This document shows positions 14 to 15,211 of a stretch of 20,371 nucleotides of DNA, piece after piece. This stretch comes from a virus: positions 1-20,371 of IMG/VR virus record IMGVR_UViG_3300021962_000825. One strand, 5' to 3'. The position numbers and the translations under genes were made by a program. Within the stretch, counting starts at the first letter, position 1. Each line of letters begins with the position of its first letter. Under the pieces are notes generated by a model. That model searched no databases. It worked only from the letters and a program-made list of their open reading frames with translations, and was not told the origin of the DNA.

Positions 14-346
14 TTAATTGGTTTTGCCATAAAATGATTGTCTAGCTTCTAAACAGAGTAAACTGCCTGCCTTAAACTGCCGGCAAGCCTGGGGACGGTT
101 TTCGTAAATTGTACATGAAACTGACTTGCCAACAACTCCAGACAGAGCAGCACATCTATTGTTGCAGGTCTTGAGTAACGGATAGTCATCTCGGATTAAA
201 TTTGCTGGTATGTTGACGGCATCGGAGCGGTCACGCTTGAGCACCGGCCAGCTCCACTTGTGACTGCAACAGGCCCCGCAAGTCCTGCAATCCAGATCTG
301 ATGTTGCAGTACTCTGCGACTGGTTGCTCATGAAGAACGTGCTCAT
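14..346 (-). CDS. YkgJ-like CxxCxxCC metal-binding protein
   Basis: This 110-residue protein has the CRTCGACC motif (cysteines at 20, 23, 26 and 27), then CTIYENRPQACRQFKAGS with two more cysteines and LCLEAR near the end. This is the layout of the YkgJ family (CxxCxxCC, proposed zinc or iron chelation; Pfam PF03692). In that family the later 'C.iYe.RP..C' motif completes the site. The start must lie before residue 20, so either ATG (346 or 331) forces an overlap of at least 101 bases with the preceding PP-loop gene. A weak GAGA lies 7 bases before the ATG at 346. Both genes carry cysteine clusters and may work together, but this is a guess from adjacency. Confidence 0.82.
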   Translation of the reverse strand: MSTFFMSNQSQSTATSDLDCRTCGACCSHKWSWPVLKRDRSDAVNIPANLIRDDYPLLKTCNNRCAALSGVVGKSVSCTIYENRPQACRQFKAGSLLCLEARQSFYGKTN

Positions 347-1061
347 GCAGGTTCTCTACTTGAATGCCATCCTTGGGGCAATCAACAAACTTGCCAAGCC
401 GCTTGTCTACGCAGTTAAAACAGGCATGAACGTAGTCTGAGTTCATGTGCTTGTCCGGTTTGCTGACCACATTATCGTCGTATCTATTGCGATCAAACAA
501 AACGTTGTTGTTTTTGATGTAGGCCGAAACATCTTTGTCGGTCCACTCACGCAACGGAAACCACATCTCTGTAGATGGGCCTAGCAATTTTTTGTGGATT
601 TCTAGCGGGATCTGTCCAGTCAATGGATCTTCGTCACTGCTTTTGTGGCCGCATAGCAACACGTCAAAGTCAGAAATAACCCTTGCCTTTGGGCGGTTTA
701 GCCACTCCTTGCCACATACCCAAGGCTTACCTGCCTCCATGGGCTCTGTTCCGCGCATTACTCTAATGTTTCCATCTCCAATTGAGTACTTTTCACAAAC
801 ATCTATGCGTCCATTTCCGTGAGTTAGAGCAATAGATTCTGGCACCCAATCATGCACGGTCATCCCATAGGACTCTTGAGCTACATGATGGAAGGCGTAC
901 TTCTGGGGCAAAAATGGCAACTTAAAATGAATTACCTCAATGTCTGGTCGAATCTTTCTTGTGAGATCTAACAAGACAGTGCCGTCCTTCCCGCCACTCC
1001 AAAGAACGGCTGGGCGTTTTGCATGTTTAAGAGCCAAAAGTATAGTTTGTTCAGCAGTCAT
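231..1061 (-). CDS. PAPS reductase-like PP-loop protein (CysH/DndC superfamily)
   Basis: This 276-residue protein belongs to the adenine-nucleotide alpha-hydrolase superfamily. The PP-loop is AVLWSGGKDGTVLLDL with SGGKDG at residues 22-27; the usual last residue is serine, here glycine. FPLREWTDKDVSAYI (about 170-185) is the typical second half of PAPS-reductase-type proteins, and HACFNCVDKR near residue 213 gives a CxxC pair followed by another cysteine. Family members reduce activated sulfate or take part in sulfur transfer to DNA or tRNA. Such genes are frequent in aquatic phages, and their true substrate is mostly unknown. No other sulfur-pathway or dnd genes are in the window. It starts at a TAATG overlap and its last 38 codons overlap the next gene by 116 bases. 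Confidence 0.82.
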   Translation of the reverse strand: MTAEQTILLALKHAKRPAVLWSGGKDGTVLLDLTRKIRPDIEVIHFKLPFLPQKYAFHHVAQESYGMTVHDWVPESIALTHGNGRIDVCEKYSIGDGNIRVMRGTEPMEAGKPWVCGKEWLNRPKARVISDFDVLLCGHKSSDEDPLTGQIPLEIHKKLLGPSTEMWFPLREWTDKDVSAYIKNNNVLFDRNRYDDNVVSKPDKHMNSDYVHACFNCVDKRLGKFVDCPKDGIQVENLHEHVLHEQPVAEYCNIRSGLQDLRGLLQSQVELAGAQA

Positions 1062-2299
1062 TAAAGAATCATTGCGCCGCCAAGCATGCCGCCAGCACTA
1101 AGCAACCCGCCGCCTAGCGAGCCAAACATGCTCGACTTGCCGGCTTCTTTGGCAGCATTAGCCTGAGCCTGTGCTCCCGCCAAGTTCATCTGCGCGTTGT
1201 AGGCACCATAGATCGAGCCCATGCCAGTCTGACTTTCCGGGTTGAACAACTGTGGCCCAGCAGCCTGGCCCATGTTGTAGCCCATTTGCTGAGCAGAACC
1301 AACTGCTCCTTGAAGGATGGGTTGCTTGTAAAACGCCTGCAATACAGGTGCCTGAGCGGCCTGAAGCTGTCCAAGCGCACCAGCGCCAAGCTGAGCGCGT
1401 CCAACCTGAATAGCCGTGCCAGCCTGCATCCGGCCTTGCTCTGCTTGGCCGCGGGAAAGGGCCTGCTGAAAAGCCTGCTGCTGAGCGCCAAGTCCGTACT
1501 GCAAACCAGCTTGTTGGCGCTGAGTGGCCTCGGCCAGCGCGGGCTGGTAGATGGCTTGAATCTGCCCGGCAGCACGTTGGGCAGTGGTAAGGCGCTCTTG
1601 GTAGCGCTGGTTAGCGACCTGTGAGCGGTTAAGAATCTCAGCTCCAATAGCGCCGCCACCAAGTGCAGTTCCGCGGGCAGCGTATGCGGACCTGGCAGTC
1701 TGATCAGCAATGCGCTGTTCCTCAGGAGTCAAGCCGCGGCCAGCCATTAATTCTTGCTCAGCAGTTTGAGACAAAAGCCTGGCATAATTGCCCATTCCAG
1801 GCATCGTGCCAACATACTGGTTGACGATGTCTTGGTTGATGTTTTCTAAGCCAGACCCCATTTGAGGCCCGCCAACTCCCTGCTCAAAAGCAGTAAGCTG
1901 GGGAGCCTGCAAGGAACGAGCCATTTCCTGCTGGGCTAACTGGCCGGCAGAACTAAGGGCTTCTTGGTAGCCGGGCGTTAGTGAAGAAAATGCTCTCTGA
2001 TACTCAGGAAGCGAAGTCTGAAGCTGTCTTAACTCTGCCGCACGGTTAGCTGCACCGTACTTAGCTTCAACTTCCGCAACTTGCGGATACATCTTGGCCG
2101 CCTGCTCCAGTGCCTGCTGGCTTGAATAAGCCTGAGTTTGAGCCTGAAGTTCAGCATATTTTGGCTGGTATTCAGATTCTCTGGCGTAGACCTCTGGAGC
2201 CATCTCCACCTGGGCCTTAAGAATGTCCCGCATCGACTCCTGATAATTAGGAGCCGCCGGTGCTTGAATTGTTGTTGATCCGCCGCCATATCCGCCCAT
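1061..2299 (-). CDS. Probable internal virion / DNA-ejection protein
   Basis: This 412-residue protein is rich in alanine, glutamine and glycine. It has a short flexible start (GGYGGGSTTIQAPAAPNY), then long helical stretches with many glutamines (residues 30-330), such as YAELQAQTQAYSSQQALEQA. Its C-terminus is glycine-rich and hydrophobic (FGSLGGGLLSAGGMLGGAM), resembling membrane-inserting GxxxG helices. Podovirus internal or ejection proteins have this kind of composition and often a membrane-active end. It alone in the window has a strong Shine-Dalgarno (AAGGAG, 6-base spacing), pointing to independent and strong translation. The stop overlaps the next gene as TAATG. Function is inferred from composition and the virion-gene context; there is no motif to confirm it. 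Confidence 0.7.
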   Translation of the reverse strand: MGGYGGGSTTIQAPAAPNYQESMRDILKAQVEMAPEVYARESEYQPKYAELQAQTQAYSSQQALEQAAKMYPQVAEVEAKYGAANRAAELRQLQTSLPEYQRAFSSLTPGYQEALSSAGQLAQQEMARSLQAPQLTAFEQGVGGPQMGSGLENINQDIVNQYVGTMPGMGNYARLLSQTAEQELMAGRGLTPEEQRIADQTARSAYAARGTALGGGAIGAEILNRSQVANQRYQERLTTAQRAAGQIQAIYQPALAEATQRQQAGLQYGLGAQQQAFQQALSRGQAEQGRMQAGTAIQVGRAQLGAGALGQLQAAQAPVLQAFYKQPILQGAVGSAQQMGYNMGQAAGPQLFNPESQTGMGSIYGAYNAQMNLAGAQAQANAAKEAGKSSMFGSLGGGLLSAGGMLGGAMIL

Positions 2300-2302
2300 A
2301 AA

Positions 2303-2737
2303 TTACTCCTTATCGTATTTTCTGATTTGATCAATGGCCCGCATGTGCGCCCATCCTCCAATTAAAAAAGCTACATGTGAATATATTACAAAATCACTAC
2401 ACTTCAATGCAGAAGAATAACCCTTGCCCTGTGCTGCTGCTTCTTCTCCAGTGACCCACCCATGACAAGCATTCAGGATTAAAGGAAGCAGACTTGCCTT
2501 GTGTTGTTGGAAAAATGGATTACAGCAAATTGTTTCAATAAACAAAAATAGTTCTCTGGAAACTTCATCAAGAAGGACCGGCTGATCTCTGTCAACAAGA
2601 TCATCAATAACATGGCAGAAGTTCCAGCACCTCCAAATAAAATTAAAGGCATCGTCATTTCCATTTGCAATAAACAACATGATGTTTAGTGCGTTTGGAT
2701 TTTTGTCTACTTCCTCTGGCTTACTGCAATAGTCCAT
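2303..2737 (-). CDS. Small helical protein with an IDDLVD motif, unknown function
   Basis: This 144-residue protein is coupled to the methyltransferase (TAATG) and ends three bases before the next start. It appears fully helical, with WNFCHVIDDLVDRDQPV (about residues 38-54) as the most distinctive element. CNPFFQQHKASLLPLI and ACHGWVTGEE come later, then a hydrophobic HVAFLIGGWAHMRAI. I recall a family of phage proteins with 'CxxIxDDLIDxDKPV ... NPFYxxH ... ILxxxxxxW' that has no known role. The DDxxD-like acids on a helix bring terpenoid-synthase-like folds to mind, but the protein is half their size, so this is only a hint. Confidence 0.75.
   Translation of the reverse strand: MDYCSKPEEVDKNPNALNIMLFIANGNDDAFNFIWRCWNFCHVIDDLVDRDQPVLLDEVSRELFLFIETICCNPFFQQHKASLLPLILNACHGWVTGEEAAAQGKGYSSALKCSDFVIYSHVAFLIGGWAHMRAIDQIRKYDKE
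2306..2311 (-). promoter_or_regulatory. Strong Shine-Dalgarno for the internal virion protein gene
   Basis: AAGGAG lies 6 bases before the ATG at 2299, inside the last codons of the preceding gene. It is the only textbook Shine-Dalgarno I find before any gene in the window, and it fixes the start of the 412-residue protein. Confidence 0.75.
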
Positions 2738-3513
2738 TATTTTTCGTACAAGAATTCTGATATTTTAATTGGGGCAAACGGAACTTGATTTTCATGGAAT
2801 TCACCTAGCCCACTATTGACCAGGTTAATCCAAGCATCAAAGTCCAATATCGCATTCATATTTGGATTGCACTCAATTACCTTAAATCCAGCATTTGTAG
2901 CAGCATTTAAGTGATACCAAGTTGGATAGCACATGTAATGCCAGACATCCTGCAATTCTTTAATTTGCCGTGCTTGATGCGGATCTAGATCATCAACAGC
3001 GCACATGTCTGAAATTAACAACTTTCCACCTGGCCTTAAGACTCTGTATGCCTCACTCAAAACATCAACAAGCGGCCTGTATCCGATGCTTTGGTAGAAG
3101 TAAATAAAGTCAAATGAGTTGTCGCTAAACGGCATCTCATCGTATGAGCCTACCTTAAACGCGCAGTTTATTGGCGCGGCTGCCGTTGCTATTTTAACTT
3201 GCTCAGAAGAAATCGTAAGGCCAGTAAACGATGCTTCTGGATGTTTTTTTGCAAAAAAGTTTGCAACATGACCGATTCCACAACCGGCATCGAGCACCTT
3301 TTTTGATCCATCCTGCCAATGCCTGCAATGCAGTATTTCAAGATGTTCTTCAAAGTTATTTGAAAATAACCCGGACTGAAATACTGGATAGTCGTTATCA
3401 ACGTAAATTGACGTACAACCATTCCAGTACTTTTCTAGCTTATCATGCGACTTGCATTTGTTCTTGTAGTATATTGAGTGCGCCAAAAACGCAGAAAACC
3501 TTGAGGCGCTCAT
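2737..3513 (-). CDS. SAM-dependent class I methyltransferase
   Basis: This 258-residue protein transfers a methyl group from S-adenosylmethionine to an unknown acceptor. Motif I is VLDAGCGIGH (residues 73-82). GLTISSEQ (98-105) resembles the post-I motif of sterol/cyclopropane-fatty-acid type methyltransferases (GxTLSxxQ). DNSFDFIYFYQSIGY carries the motif II region and EAYRVLRPGGKLLISD the motif III region. Small-molecule or lipid targets are therefore more likely than DNA, since no DPPY-type motif is present. It is coupled to both neighbours by TAATG. Base composition here (2303-3513) is clearly more AT-rich than the head genes, which could mark recent acquisition. Confidence 0.88.
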   Translation of the reverse strand: MSASRFSAFLAHSIYYKNKCKSHDKLEKYWNGCTSIYVDNDYPVFQSGLFSNNFEEHLEILHCRHWQDGSKKVLDAGCGIGHVANFFAKKHPEASFTGLTISSEQVKIATAAAPINCAFKVGSYDEMPFSDNSFDFIYFYQSIGYRPLVDVLSEAYRVLRPGGKLLISDMCAVDDLDPHQARQIKELQDVWHYMCYPTWYHLNAATNAGFKVIECNPNMNAILDFDAWINLVNSGLGEFHENQVPFAPIKISEFLYEK

Positions 3514-13247: not shown

Positions 13248-13564
13248 TTGCTAGGCGTCCACCCTACACTGATTTCCTTAACTCCGCCACTATTTACCTT
13301 GCACTCAGGATTGTCGCGCAGGAACTCATCCATAAATGCCTTGTCATTCCAGCAGCCGTATCCAAGCTTCTGCCCCCAAAAGTGGTAAGCAGTGCCGGGA
13401 ATAGTAGCAATCTTTTGACCCAGTCCCTCTACAGATTTGTGCCGCTCTTTGTTGAACTTGGCAATCTGCTTGGCCTCAACTTTGGCCTGCACCTTGTTTC
13501 GTTCCCAGCCTGCACGCAGCTCTTTCTCAAGCTGCCCAACCATGTTTTCAGGAATGCTGATCAT
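13244..13564 (-). CDS. Conserved-looking phage protein of unknown function
   Basis: This 106-residue protein overlaps both neighbours by four bases (ATGA at each end), so it is probably translationally coupled. The N-terminal half is a charged helix rich in lysine and glutamate (residues 10-45). The second half is compact and aromatic, with SYHFWGQ-like spacing in AYHFWGQKLGYGCWNDKAF and a closing GGVKEISVGW. I recall similar 'YHxWGQxLGYxCWxDK' proteins next to capsid and tail genes of aquatic phages, always without a known role. It could be a minor structural or head-completion protein; this is inference from position. Confidence 0.75.
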   Translation of the reverse strand: MISIPENMVGQLEKELRAGWERNKVQAKVEAKQIAKFNKERHKSVEGLGQKIATIPGTAYHFWGQKLGYGCWNDKAFMDEFLRDNPECKVNSGGVKEISVGWTPSK

Positions 13565-13797
13565 ACGCGAGCCATGAAAGTTGTGCCAGGACCAGGAACC
13601 AGAGGAAGCCTTCCGTTTGCGTCATAGATGCCACTGTAAGGGTTAATCGTATCCTCCGGCATGGCAGACCCATCTGTGCCCTCAGGGCCGCTGCTAGCGG
13701 GCTTCCTGTTGGCAAGAGCCACCAAGTTTGCCGGGGCCTGCACGCCGGTGTAGCGTTGAATCAGTTCTGGAATTATTGGTATTGGAAGTACAGTCAT
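13561..13797 (-). CDS. Small protein of unknown function, first gene after the hairpin gap
   Basis: This 78-residue protein begins right after a terminator-like T-run and has no Shine-Dalgarno sequence. The first 14 residues are hydrophobic and proline/isoleucine-rich (VLPIPIIPELI), which is not a convincing signal peptide. The rest is rich in glycine, proline and serine and probably flexible. Its stop overlaps the next start as ATGA. It lies between the capsid and head-tail adaptor genes, where minor head or connector proteins are common. I do not recognise it and assign no function. Confidence 0.65.
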   Translation of the reverse strand: MTVLPIPIIPELIQRYTGVQAPANLVALANRKPASSGPEGTDGSAMPEDTINPYSGIYDANGRLPLVPGPGTTFMARV

Positions 13798-13821
13798 AAA
13801 AAGTGACTGCTAACGGCAGTC
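13798..13821 (-). terminator. Terminator-like hairpin before the connector genes
   Basis: On the transcribed strand a 6-bp stem GACTGC/GCAGTC with a CGTTA loop (13821-13805) is followed by AC and then TTTTT (13802-13798). The next gene starts immediately at 13797. This is the arrangement of a weak Rho-independent terminator. Together with the hairpin array it could reduce transcription of tail genes relative to the capsid gene. The stem is short, so read-through is likely. Confidence 0.5.
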
Positions 13822-13870
13822 AGTCGGAATCTAGTTGGTTAAAGACTCAATGTTCTTCGTCTGGATGAAA

Positions 13871-14100
13871 GTGTGCCGTCTCTCCGGCTGTCACACCACT
13901 GCATCGACCGAGTATCCCGGTCCGTGCCGCCGGCATGGAGCCAGCATGGCAGGTGTCGCAAAACTAAAGAAATCGTCTCTCCGATTAGTCACACCACTTG
14001 TCAACCAGCCACATGGTGCTGGAAGCGCTTGACTCAATTTAGAGCCACAGGTGTCGCTCGACGCTATAATCTCCGTCTCTCCGGAGTGTCACGCCCATTG
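13871..14100 (-). repeat. Array of three repeated stem-loops with conserved GAGAGA loops
   Basis: The gene-free stretch after the capsid gene holds three copies of a motif read on the transcribed strand. Each has a box (GTGTGAC, or GCGTGAC in the first copy) followed by a short stem-loop with the same six-base loop GAGAGA. The loops are at 14076-14081, 13976-13981 and 13879-13884, spaced 100 and 97 bases apart. The stems differ between copies but remain paired: CTCCG/CGGAG, AATCG/CGATT and GCCG/CGGC. In the last copy a second helix GTGT/ACAC encloses the stem. A further box, GCGACACCTG, recurs at 14057-14048 and 13959-13950 and can pair in part with the GGTGT of the box. Conserved loop with compensating stem changes is what a selected RNA (or DNA) structure looks like. 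No long U-runs follow the loops. Function unknown. Confidence 0.75.
13925..13951 (-). other. Bulged 10-bp stem-loop inside the hairpin array
   Basis: On the transcribed strand TGCC-at-GCTGGC pairs with GCCGGC-GGCA around a five-base loop, giving ten pairs with a two-base bulge. One pair is G-U on the minus-strand RNA but would be an A-C mismatch on the plus strand, so the structure favours minus-strand RNA. The neighbouring repeat unit has a smaller stem-loop in the same general place (CCAGC/GCTGG, 14005-14022). Confidence 0.5.
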
Positions 14101-14119
14101 ACTCTTGGCGGCGTTCCCG

Positions 14120-14135
14120 ATCTCGCGTCCGAGAT
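14120..14135 (-). other. Stem-loop at the capsid gene stop codon
   Basis: A 6-bp stem (ATCTCG/CGAGAT) with a 4-base GACG loop begins at the last base of the capsid stop codon on the transcribed strand. No U-run follows. It is the first of a series of stem-loops filling the gap between the capsid gene and the next gene, and could protect the 3' end of capsid mRNA. Confidence 0.5.
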
Positions 14136-15211
14136 TAAGCAGCGTTGTAGTCAAACTTGCCGAGACCCAGAGGGTTCCCAACAACCAGACCAGCAACAGC
14201 TTCCACGAGGCGTCCGGGTCCACCACCGTTGTCAGTCAACGGAGTGACCTGTGCCACGTTTCCGCCATAACGCACTTCAATGAGGTTCATGTCAAGGACA
14301 AGACCCTTAAAAGGCGTGGGCGTGTAGGTCGTACCAGACACCGTCCCGAGGAACGTGGTCGGGTGCAAGCGCACCGTGCCAAAGTCACCTTGGAACACGT
14401 CCAGCGACTGGATGTAGGTGTCCGCGGCAGCATCACGCTGGAAGGTCTGCACCTTCGTTGCGCCTGCGCCAGTAATACCAACGCCAGTGGTGGTCGTCAG
14501 GCTGGTCGTCCCAAGCAGGCCAGTAAAGGCGCGCTTGAGGTCAGTGCCCACCAAGCAATCAAAGCTGGTGTAGTGACCAGTCTGATCGAAAATGGACTTG
14601 AGCAGGCCCTGCACTGTGGCGTCCGTCAAAGACGTTCCAAGAGCAGTGCCGGAGCCAACGATGGAAGTCGTGGGGGTACGGAAGATGGAAGGAATGTCGC
14701 CAGGAGTCGGAGTCCCCGTGCCGGCATTGCTGATCCAGGTCTGTGCGCCCGCGGTGCGGTAGGCAGTAGTCTGGTCGCCAGTGTCAAGCTGGGAAACCTG
14801 ATTCGAGGTCATCGTAACTTCCATGTCACGCTTGATCCCGGTGATCGCTTTTGCCACGTTGTCAGCCAGTTCATCACGCACACCAGCAACATCAGCGATG
14901 TCCTGAGTGAGCTTGGAAACACGGACTGCACGCCGATAAATCTGCGCGTAGTTGGACAATTCCGCACGATAGCCAACAACGTAGTTGCTGACGCCAGTCG
15001 TAAGGTTTACGTCCAAGCCGTCCGGAGTGCCGCCAACCTGGGGGGTCGGAAGGCTATCGGACTGCCAACGGAAGTACATATTGCCGGGCTTGGAGCCCTT
15101 CTTTGCCATCGACGTGAAGGGCGTGTCCTTGGCGTCAACCAAGGCAATCATGTCCATCAGATCTTCGCGCTTACCGCGGCCGGAGAGGTTGGGTTCAGTT
15201 AGAGAAGCCAT
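14135..15211 (-). CDS. Major capsid protein, SU10/DUF5309-like
   Basis: This 358-residue protein is the main shell component, with a predicted HK97-type fold. The N-terminus has the pattern GKREDLMDMIALVDAKDTPF followed by KKGSKPGNMYFRWQSDSL. I recognise this from the phage SU10-type major capsid family (DUF5309), where an E/D-L-x-D helix precedes a 'TPF' turn and a W-x-x-D-S-L motif. The centre is rich in threonine, glycine and alanine (beta-rich), and the C-terminus has the GGxGRLVEAVAGLVVGNPLG segment typical of the domain core. The length fits the family. Codon use is strongly GC-ending, unlike the more AT-rich accessory genes near the left end, as expected for a highly expressed gene. 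No Shine-Dalgarno precedes the start; the leader is AT-rich. A 6-bp stem-loop begins at the stop codon. Confidence 0.92.
   Translation of the reverse strand: MASLTEPNLSGRGKREDLMDMIALVDAKDTPFTSMAKKGSKPGNMYFRWQSDSLPTPQVGGTPDGLDVNLTTGVSNYVVGYRAELSNYAQIYRRAVRVSKLTQDIADVAGVRDELADNVAKAITGIKRDMEVTMTSNQVSQLDTGDQTTAYRTAGAQTWISNAGTGTPTPGDIPSIFRTPTTSIVGSGTALGTSLTDATVQGLLKSIFDQTGHYTSFDCLVGTDLKRAFTGLLGTTSLTTTTGVGITGAGATKVQTFQRDAAADTYIQSLDVFQGDFGTVRLHPTTFLGTVSGTTYTPTPFKGLVLDMNLIEVRYGGNVAQVTPLTDNGGGPGRLVEAVAGLVVGNPLGLGKFDYNAA

Follow-up and report, generated by a model that had tools for sequence, protein, structure and literature searches.

A two-helix RNA element in tandem behind a phage capsid gene, widespread among mobile elements and possibly acting on host RNA polymerase

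The window, that is, the whole stretch of DNA analysed here, is a virus record of 20,371 bases in which the terminase, portal, capsid and tail-region open reading frames lie on the minus strand. The major capsid protein gene (14135..15211, minus strand; PHROG 1328 major head protein, E 9e-40) is separated by 337 bases from a gene for a 78-aa protein (MTVLPIPII..., 13561..13797, minus strand), which has no match in PHROG and is kept in most relatives. The gap between them holds an array of three units, with the capsid gene as upstream and the 78-aa gene as downstream neighbour. The sequence CGGAGAGACG occurs three times in the window, always on the minus strand, against 0.01 occurrences expected from dinucleotide-preserving shuffles, and the gap folds better than its shuffles on the minus strand (z-score -3.1; plus strand -1.0). 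Two further minus-strand hairpins lie beside the array. TCTCG-GACG-CGAGA (14121..14134), directly behind the capsid stop codon and 5' of unit 1, forms the first stem of the minimum-energy fold; it is lineage-specific and outside the core element. At the far end, the fold contains a terminator-like hairpin, TGACTGC-CGTTA-GCAGTCA followed by CTTTTT (13798..13822), whose T run stops precisely where the start codon of the next gene begins. The same module is found in L003, L011 and L017 and is present in a subset of relatives only; in other relatives helix P2 of the element described below takes its place. Behind the tail genes (14-3513), putative auxiliary genes for cysteine-cluster (YkgJ-like), PAPS-reductase-like and SAM methyltransferase-like proteins were noticed by eye only.

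An earlier note on this DNA had described three copies of GYGTGAC, each followed by a hairpin with a GAGAGA loop, spaced 100 and 97 bases apart, with the stems CTCCG/CGGAG, AATCG/CGATT and GCCG/CGGC, in which pairing is kept. The sequence bears this out, with the correction that the whole arrangement belongs to the minus strand, which also codes for the capsid protein. The note had also recorded a second box 71-72 bases from two of the loops, and its positions stand: the GCGACACCTG box occupies 14057-14048 and 13959-13950, and its end-to-end distance to the loop that follows is 72 and 71 bases, respectively. However, it is no loose box, and the single hairpin, real in itself, under-describes the unit. 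GYGTGAC and GCGACACC pair with each other as the two sides of a helix, P1, which stands directly before the GAGAGA hairpin, P2; each 5' box pairs with the GGTGT of the following unit. Since the first unit has a covarying partner of its own, ACGCC/GGCGT, all three units possess both helices, and the array consists of three compact two-helix RNAs, not of lone hairpins. We regard this anatomy as nearly certain.

A covariance model (R1, built from 53 sequences) finds all three units complete, with E values from 5e-14 to 7e-11, and has no other match in the window. Unit 1 (14067..14120, minus strand; 51.3 bits, E 4.7e-14) has P1 formed by ACGCC (14114-14110) and GGCGT (14095-14091), followed by GAC (14090-14088), and P2 formed by CTCCG (14086-14082) and CGGAG (14075-14071) around the loop GAGAGA (14081-14076). 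In unit 2 (13967..14060, minus strand; 40.6 bits, E 6.5e-11), ACACC (14054-14050) and GGTGT (13995-13991) enclose a 54-nt arm, GAC follows at 13990-13988, and P2 consists of AATCG (13986-13982) and CGATT (13975-13971) with GAGAGA at 13981-13976. Unit 3 (13870..13962, minus strand; 43.8 bits, E 7.4e-12) is built alike, with ACACC (13956-13952) and GGTGT (13897-13893) around a 54-nt arm, GAC at 13892-13890, and GCCG (13888-13885) and CGGC (13878-13875) around GAGAGA (13884-13879). Units 2 and 3 were absent from the training set of R1, whereas unit 1 was present as locus L001, cut from the same record, so that its score is high by construction. With ACGCC/GGCGU in unit 1 and ACACC/GGUGU in units 2 and 3, P1 covaries already within the array.

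Related sequences share a common order: 5' G[C/U]G or GGA, then ACRYC, a loop or arm, GGYGU and GAC, 0-1 nt, and P2. P1 (ACRYC/GGYGU, followed by GAC) closes either a loop of 8 nt at the shortest or a long variable arm, and GYG/GAC mismatches lie beneath it. P2, at a distance of 0-1 nt, is a stem of 4-6 pairs, G-C closed, with the GAGAGA hexaloop, and U is enriched about 4-7 nt behind it. The whole element thus measures about 45-50 nt plus the optional arm. A third, upstream hairpin (P0) was considered as a core part and rejected, as it is clear in some marine plasmid and chromosomal lineages and does not rise above shuffles in phages. In these marine copies (L209, L214, L241, L252-L260, L277, L278 and L280), P0, often of the form ...CTCGCC...GGCYYAG..., stands 0-1 nt before the element and has covarying outer stems. 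Several dispersed copies with the same P0 hairpin occur in two Pseudomonadales chromosomes (L253-L260) beside varied neighbours, among them, by eye, an integrase-like and a DNA methyltransferase-like gene; these copies may mark a mobile unit.

Both helices covary. In alignment A1, 94.1% of the cells are paired as against 78.1% in shuffles (0/500 as high), and the covariation score is 0.399 as against 0.104 (0/500), with slid versions of the pairing at 0.09 or below; RNAalifold independently recovers P1 and P2. To avoid selection by the search pattern, units were re-collected by P2 and GAC only, which gave 230 units from 172 loci, and the 5' anchor for the P1 tests was set irrespective of pairing. 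The first P1 pair is C-G in 128 units and A-U in 7, with zero exceptions (Fisher p 7e-12); the third is A-U in 138 and G-C in 17, with 5 mismatched A-C (Fisher p 8e-19). These p values overstate independence, since related sequences share history; the pattern nonetheless holds across unrelated contigs. Significance of covariation was approximated by the shuffles and Fisher tests. Further natural variants of P1 include ACACA/UGUGU, ACACU/AGUGU, ACACG/CGUGU and ACGUC/GACGU, with ACGUU/GACGU in Providencia phage PSTCR3. P2 occurs as 41 distinct four-pair stems, a count that demands at least four pairs; when no stem is required, 192 of 224 units still have a P2 of four or more pairs.

Eighty relatives of the capsid gene were collected, 74 of them with enough downstream sequence, and the element stands right behind the capsid gene in every one of the 74, about 30-100 nt behind the stop codon. 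Strict matching finds it in 73, in 1 to 4 copies; the remaining relative (L021) has a full unit with a seven-base loop, GAGAGUA, one base longer. The earlier note had argued for selection on structure, and had held that relatives without the hairpins, or stem changes that break pairing, would speak against it. None of the 74 lacks the element and the stem changes keep pairing, so that selection on structure is strongly supported by the covariation of two helices, the presence in all 74 relatives and the lack of any Rfam match. Stems and arms turn up in different combinations from phage to phage, and a locus has 1 to 4 copies, which indicates that the units recombine. Between the last P2 and the next start codon lie 7-12 nt in about half of the relatives; others have a spacer, a tRNA or a terminator-like module in between. 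Many near-complete relatives carry a second site in the early operon, between the genes for a RusA-like resolvase and a DnaB-like helicase and in the same orientation. At this second site (L267-L273), another conserved hairpin, GGCTGCGCATCTGT...ACACGCAGACC, follows in four relatives.

The element is by no means confined to this capsid family. A pattern scan of IMG/VR matched at least 119 stretches, nearly all of them real, since the reversed pattern gave 2, and the carriers include phages unrelated to one another, satellites, plasmids and host islands. In Morganella and Providencia phages the element lies between lysis and terminase genes, in MW202879 it precedes the terminase large subunit gene, and in L243 it stands before Mu gp36 with a FluMu_N gene in front; Pseudomonas phage Itty13 and Marinobacter phage PS3 carry it as well. 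In Stenotrophomonas phage phiSHP3 it lies behind a capsid gene of another family, as a weak match (E 1e-3). Chromosomal copies were found in Marinobacter, Microbulbifer, Cobetia and other mostly gammaproteobacterial genomes, some of them close to integrase genes; the 18 genomes checked have 1 to 7 copies each, and the E. coli genomes gave just one 20-nt partial match. In a Microbulbifer plasmid, an HTH gene and a DnaB helicase gene follow the element in the rightward operon, and a Microbulbifer island has it ahead of a PriCT-2 primase gene. Lambdoid phages keep nut or put sites at comparable positions, and the placement in the plasmid and the island resembles theirs. Escherichia phage D6 and Bordetella phages were dropped as carriers, having blast similarity only and no support from R1. 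Since carriers with cultured hosts exist (Morganella phage IME1369_02, Providencia phage PSTCR3, Marinobacter phage PS3 and Pseudomonas phage Itty13), the element is testable now.

Outside the capsid family, 112 of 120 contexts are not inside a long ORF, and the nearest gene is co-directional in 79 of 106 cases upstream and 73 of 103 downstream, by simple and noisy ORF calling. Within 300 nt of the element there are 36 tRNA genes, every one on its strand; 14 clusters begin with a tRNA whose 5' end is 4-12 nt behind P2, and in L172 a tmRNA follows the element. Individual examples (L085, L102, L130, L142, L151, L162 and L163) end 5-7 nt before the 5' end of a tRNA for Leu, Gly, Pro, Tyr, Ile or Thr. 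Some plasmid and island copies are just downstream of early promoters and most copies are mid-operon; others come last in an operon, opposite convergent genes (Sedimenticola trbI, Marinobacter phage PS3 and L245), and some 3'-end copies precede a terminator. Covariation, conservation and orientation together show that the element is transcribed in the sense direction within long phage and mobile-element transcripts. A search of the neighbouring genes with PHROGs and Pfam for a shared partner returned diverse functions and no single partner. T7-type RNA polymerases were found neither in 20 capsid relatives nor in 70 element-bearing records (many of them fragments; the T7 positive control worked), and the lack of this enzyme from the 70 records makes host RNA polymerase the most likely transcriber of the element regions. 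Intrinsic terminators near the elements number 14/148 downstream and 15/148 upstream, with a background of 19/444; there is no downstream enrichment and the comparison is uninformative.

The earlier note had known of no named RNA family with this shape, and Rfam 15 agrees: no family reaches its gathering threshold in the whole window, a search of a 351-base stretch over the array with E up to 10 gives one sub-threshold match (14 vs 52 bits), and the loci of six relatives yield only tRNA and tmRNA at or above gathering. Our literature search found nothing with the element's shape, the work on HK022 put RNA alone being close; subscription journals were outside its coverage, and an earlier description is possible. 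The element appears to be new as a family; by its kind it is a cis-acting structured RNA of mobile elements. Among known examples, GOLLD and ROOL are structured phage RNAs that often lie near tRNA genes. They share this location with the present element, but are hundreds of nucleotides long, and the element has no match to any Rfam family. Arrays of type III toxin-antitoxin RNAs likewise consist of tandem structured units, and in the window a terminator-like hairpin likewise stands before the next gene; however, the neighbours here are the capsid gene and a small structural-region gene, tRNAs or replication genes, with no linked toxin gene. In lambda-type nut sites (boxA/boxB), too, phage transcripts carry a small hairpin, which has about 5 pairs and a short, purine-rich loop. 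The present element differs in having a second covarying helix before the hairpin, in the place of boxA, and a phage-specific N protein is not implied, the same loop being found across unrelated phages, plasmids and hosts.

The closest parallel is the put RNA of phage HK022, in which two adjoining stem-loops alone bind the zinc-binding domain of beta' and suppress pausing and termination (PMC9378689). Likeness to putL and putR extends to the nascent fold, in which two stem-loops adjoin and stem I has a non-canonical pair at its base (PMC9378689), to the probable use of host RNA polymerase, and to the operon-leader positions of some copies of the present element. On the other hand, the present element is shorter, tandem, mid-operon and much more widespread, and the putL sequence has no GAGAGA hairpin. 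Membership of the put family itself was rejected, as R1 has no match in HK022 26000-40751, the stretch holding putL.

The element keeps the same letters in phages, plasmids and islands from many hosts, which have no neighbour gene in common, and its partner is therefore probably a conserved host machine. We tentatively propose, at slightly below even confidence, that the element is a cis-acting RNA that acts on host RNA polymerase in the manner of HK022 put RNA, by anti-pausing or antitermination, without being a put homologue. In such a scheme the nascent fold would bind the machinery of host transcription, RNA polymerase above all, and suppress pausing or termination, which would let the polymerase cross untranslated gaps and reach the genes, tRNAs or tmRNA that follow. 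Like put RNA it might act by RNA only, a phage protein being unnecessary, and extra tandem copies could raise the chance that one of them folds and binds. This is suggested by the antiterminator-like positions before the DnaB helicase of the Microbulbifer plasmid and the primase of the island, and by the sites before the terminase large subunit gene, between lysis and terminase genes and directly ahead of untranslated tRNAs and tmRNA; the covariation of both helices, the ubiquity, breadth and sense orientation of the element and the put precedent point the same way. Against it, the operon-3'-end copies face convergent genes, where read-through would help no co-directional gene, the main sites are mid-operon and not strictly at promoters, downstream terminators are not enriched, and the putL stretch of HK022 is not matched by R1. 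It is also possible, with somewhat less confidence, that such host-polymerase regulators made of RNA only form a widespread family not described before, portable among unrelated phages, plasmids and islands and serving in tandem at capsid genes, operon heads and tRNA genes, put-like antitermination being common and not a curiosity of HK022.

The main rival, which we judge somewhat unlikely, is that the element punctuates or stabilises RNA, either as a processing site for a host nuclease or as a barrier protecting the 3' end of the capsid message or the 5' end of the next RNA. Its spacing is what such a role would lead one to expect, with the element ending 4-12 nt before tRNA 5' ends in the 14 clusters and, for about half of the capsid relatives, 7-12 nt ahead of the next start codon, always standing about 30-100 nt behind the capsid stop codon in these relatives, and with some copies at operon 3' ends before a terminator. 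However, tight packing may merely reflect compact phage genomes, copies lie ahead of replication operons too, the short helices (4-6 pairs) do not resemble long RNase III duplexes, and the loop and single-stranded letters (GAGAGA, GAC and GYG) are far more conserved than a mere barrier requires. This near-invariant hexaloop with its flanking letters resembles a recognition surface, and would suit a docking site for a specific RNA-binding protein of the host or the mobile element; yet the phage, plasmid and host copies share no neighbour gene able to encode that protein. Alternatively, the GGAGAGA loop would serve as the ribosome-binding sequence of the next gene, which in many relatives has no other obvious one within 20 nt, only P2 and then ACAATTTTACT-ATG, although most array copies and the tRNA-preceding copies have no start codon behind them. 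Docking and translation together seem distinctly unlikely. As a separate observation, the 20 nt before the next start codon in L023, L029, L049 and L051 offer no evident ribosome-binding sequence but the GGAGA of the P2 loop.

A small self-cleaving ribozyme of a new class, cutting phage transcripts between genes, would fit the compact size, the conserved non-helical letters, the tolerance of long arms in the loop and the scattered phage positions. Known small ribozymes differ from two short helices without a pseudoknot, though, and here only two short helices and no recognisable pseudoknot are seen, no Rfam ribozyme matches and nothing marks a cleavage site, which leaves this reading very unlikely. 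The earlier note had considered attenuation before the tail genes, and an intrinsic terminator or attenuator, in which P2 and a U-rich tail stop transcription with P1 as a competing antiterminator helix, would draw on the U enrichment behind P2, the terminator-like hairpin after the array in the window and the potential of GUGU in some units to pair with ACA(C) behind P2. This alternative GUGU-ACAC pairing was rejected as it does not covary, GCGU units keeping ACA, not ACGC. P1 is retained without exception, many P2 stems are A-T rich (AATCG/CGATT) and separated by 3-4 nt from any U run, and a G-C rich hairpin with a U run directly behind it is not found in all members; such a role is very improbable indeed. 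Hairpin promoters for a phage polymerase, also raised by the note, do exist as DNA in phage N4. Neither these nor another DNA-level signal (recombination, packaging or attC-like), for which the host copies near integrase genes might speak, receives more than a next to negligible probability from us: the searches described above found no T7-type polymerase, plasmids and bacterial islands carry the element too, and the sense orientation, the strand bias of the tRNAs and the one-strand fold z-score point to RNA.

The analysis thus brings to light a strongly covarying small RNA fold behind the capsid genes of several phage lineages and beside tRNA genes that is missing from Rfam 15, and that marks places where phages of many hosts depend on one kind of help from a conserved machine of the host. 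Should it prove to serve in processing or protection, it would account for the balance that many phages strike between capsid and tail expression. If, as we tentatively propose, it acts on RNA polymerase, RNA-only antitermination would no longer be a special case but a general strategy of phages, and the element would offer a compact, portable part for transcription control.
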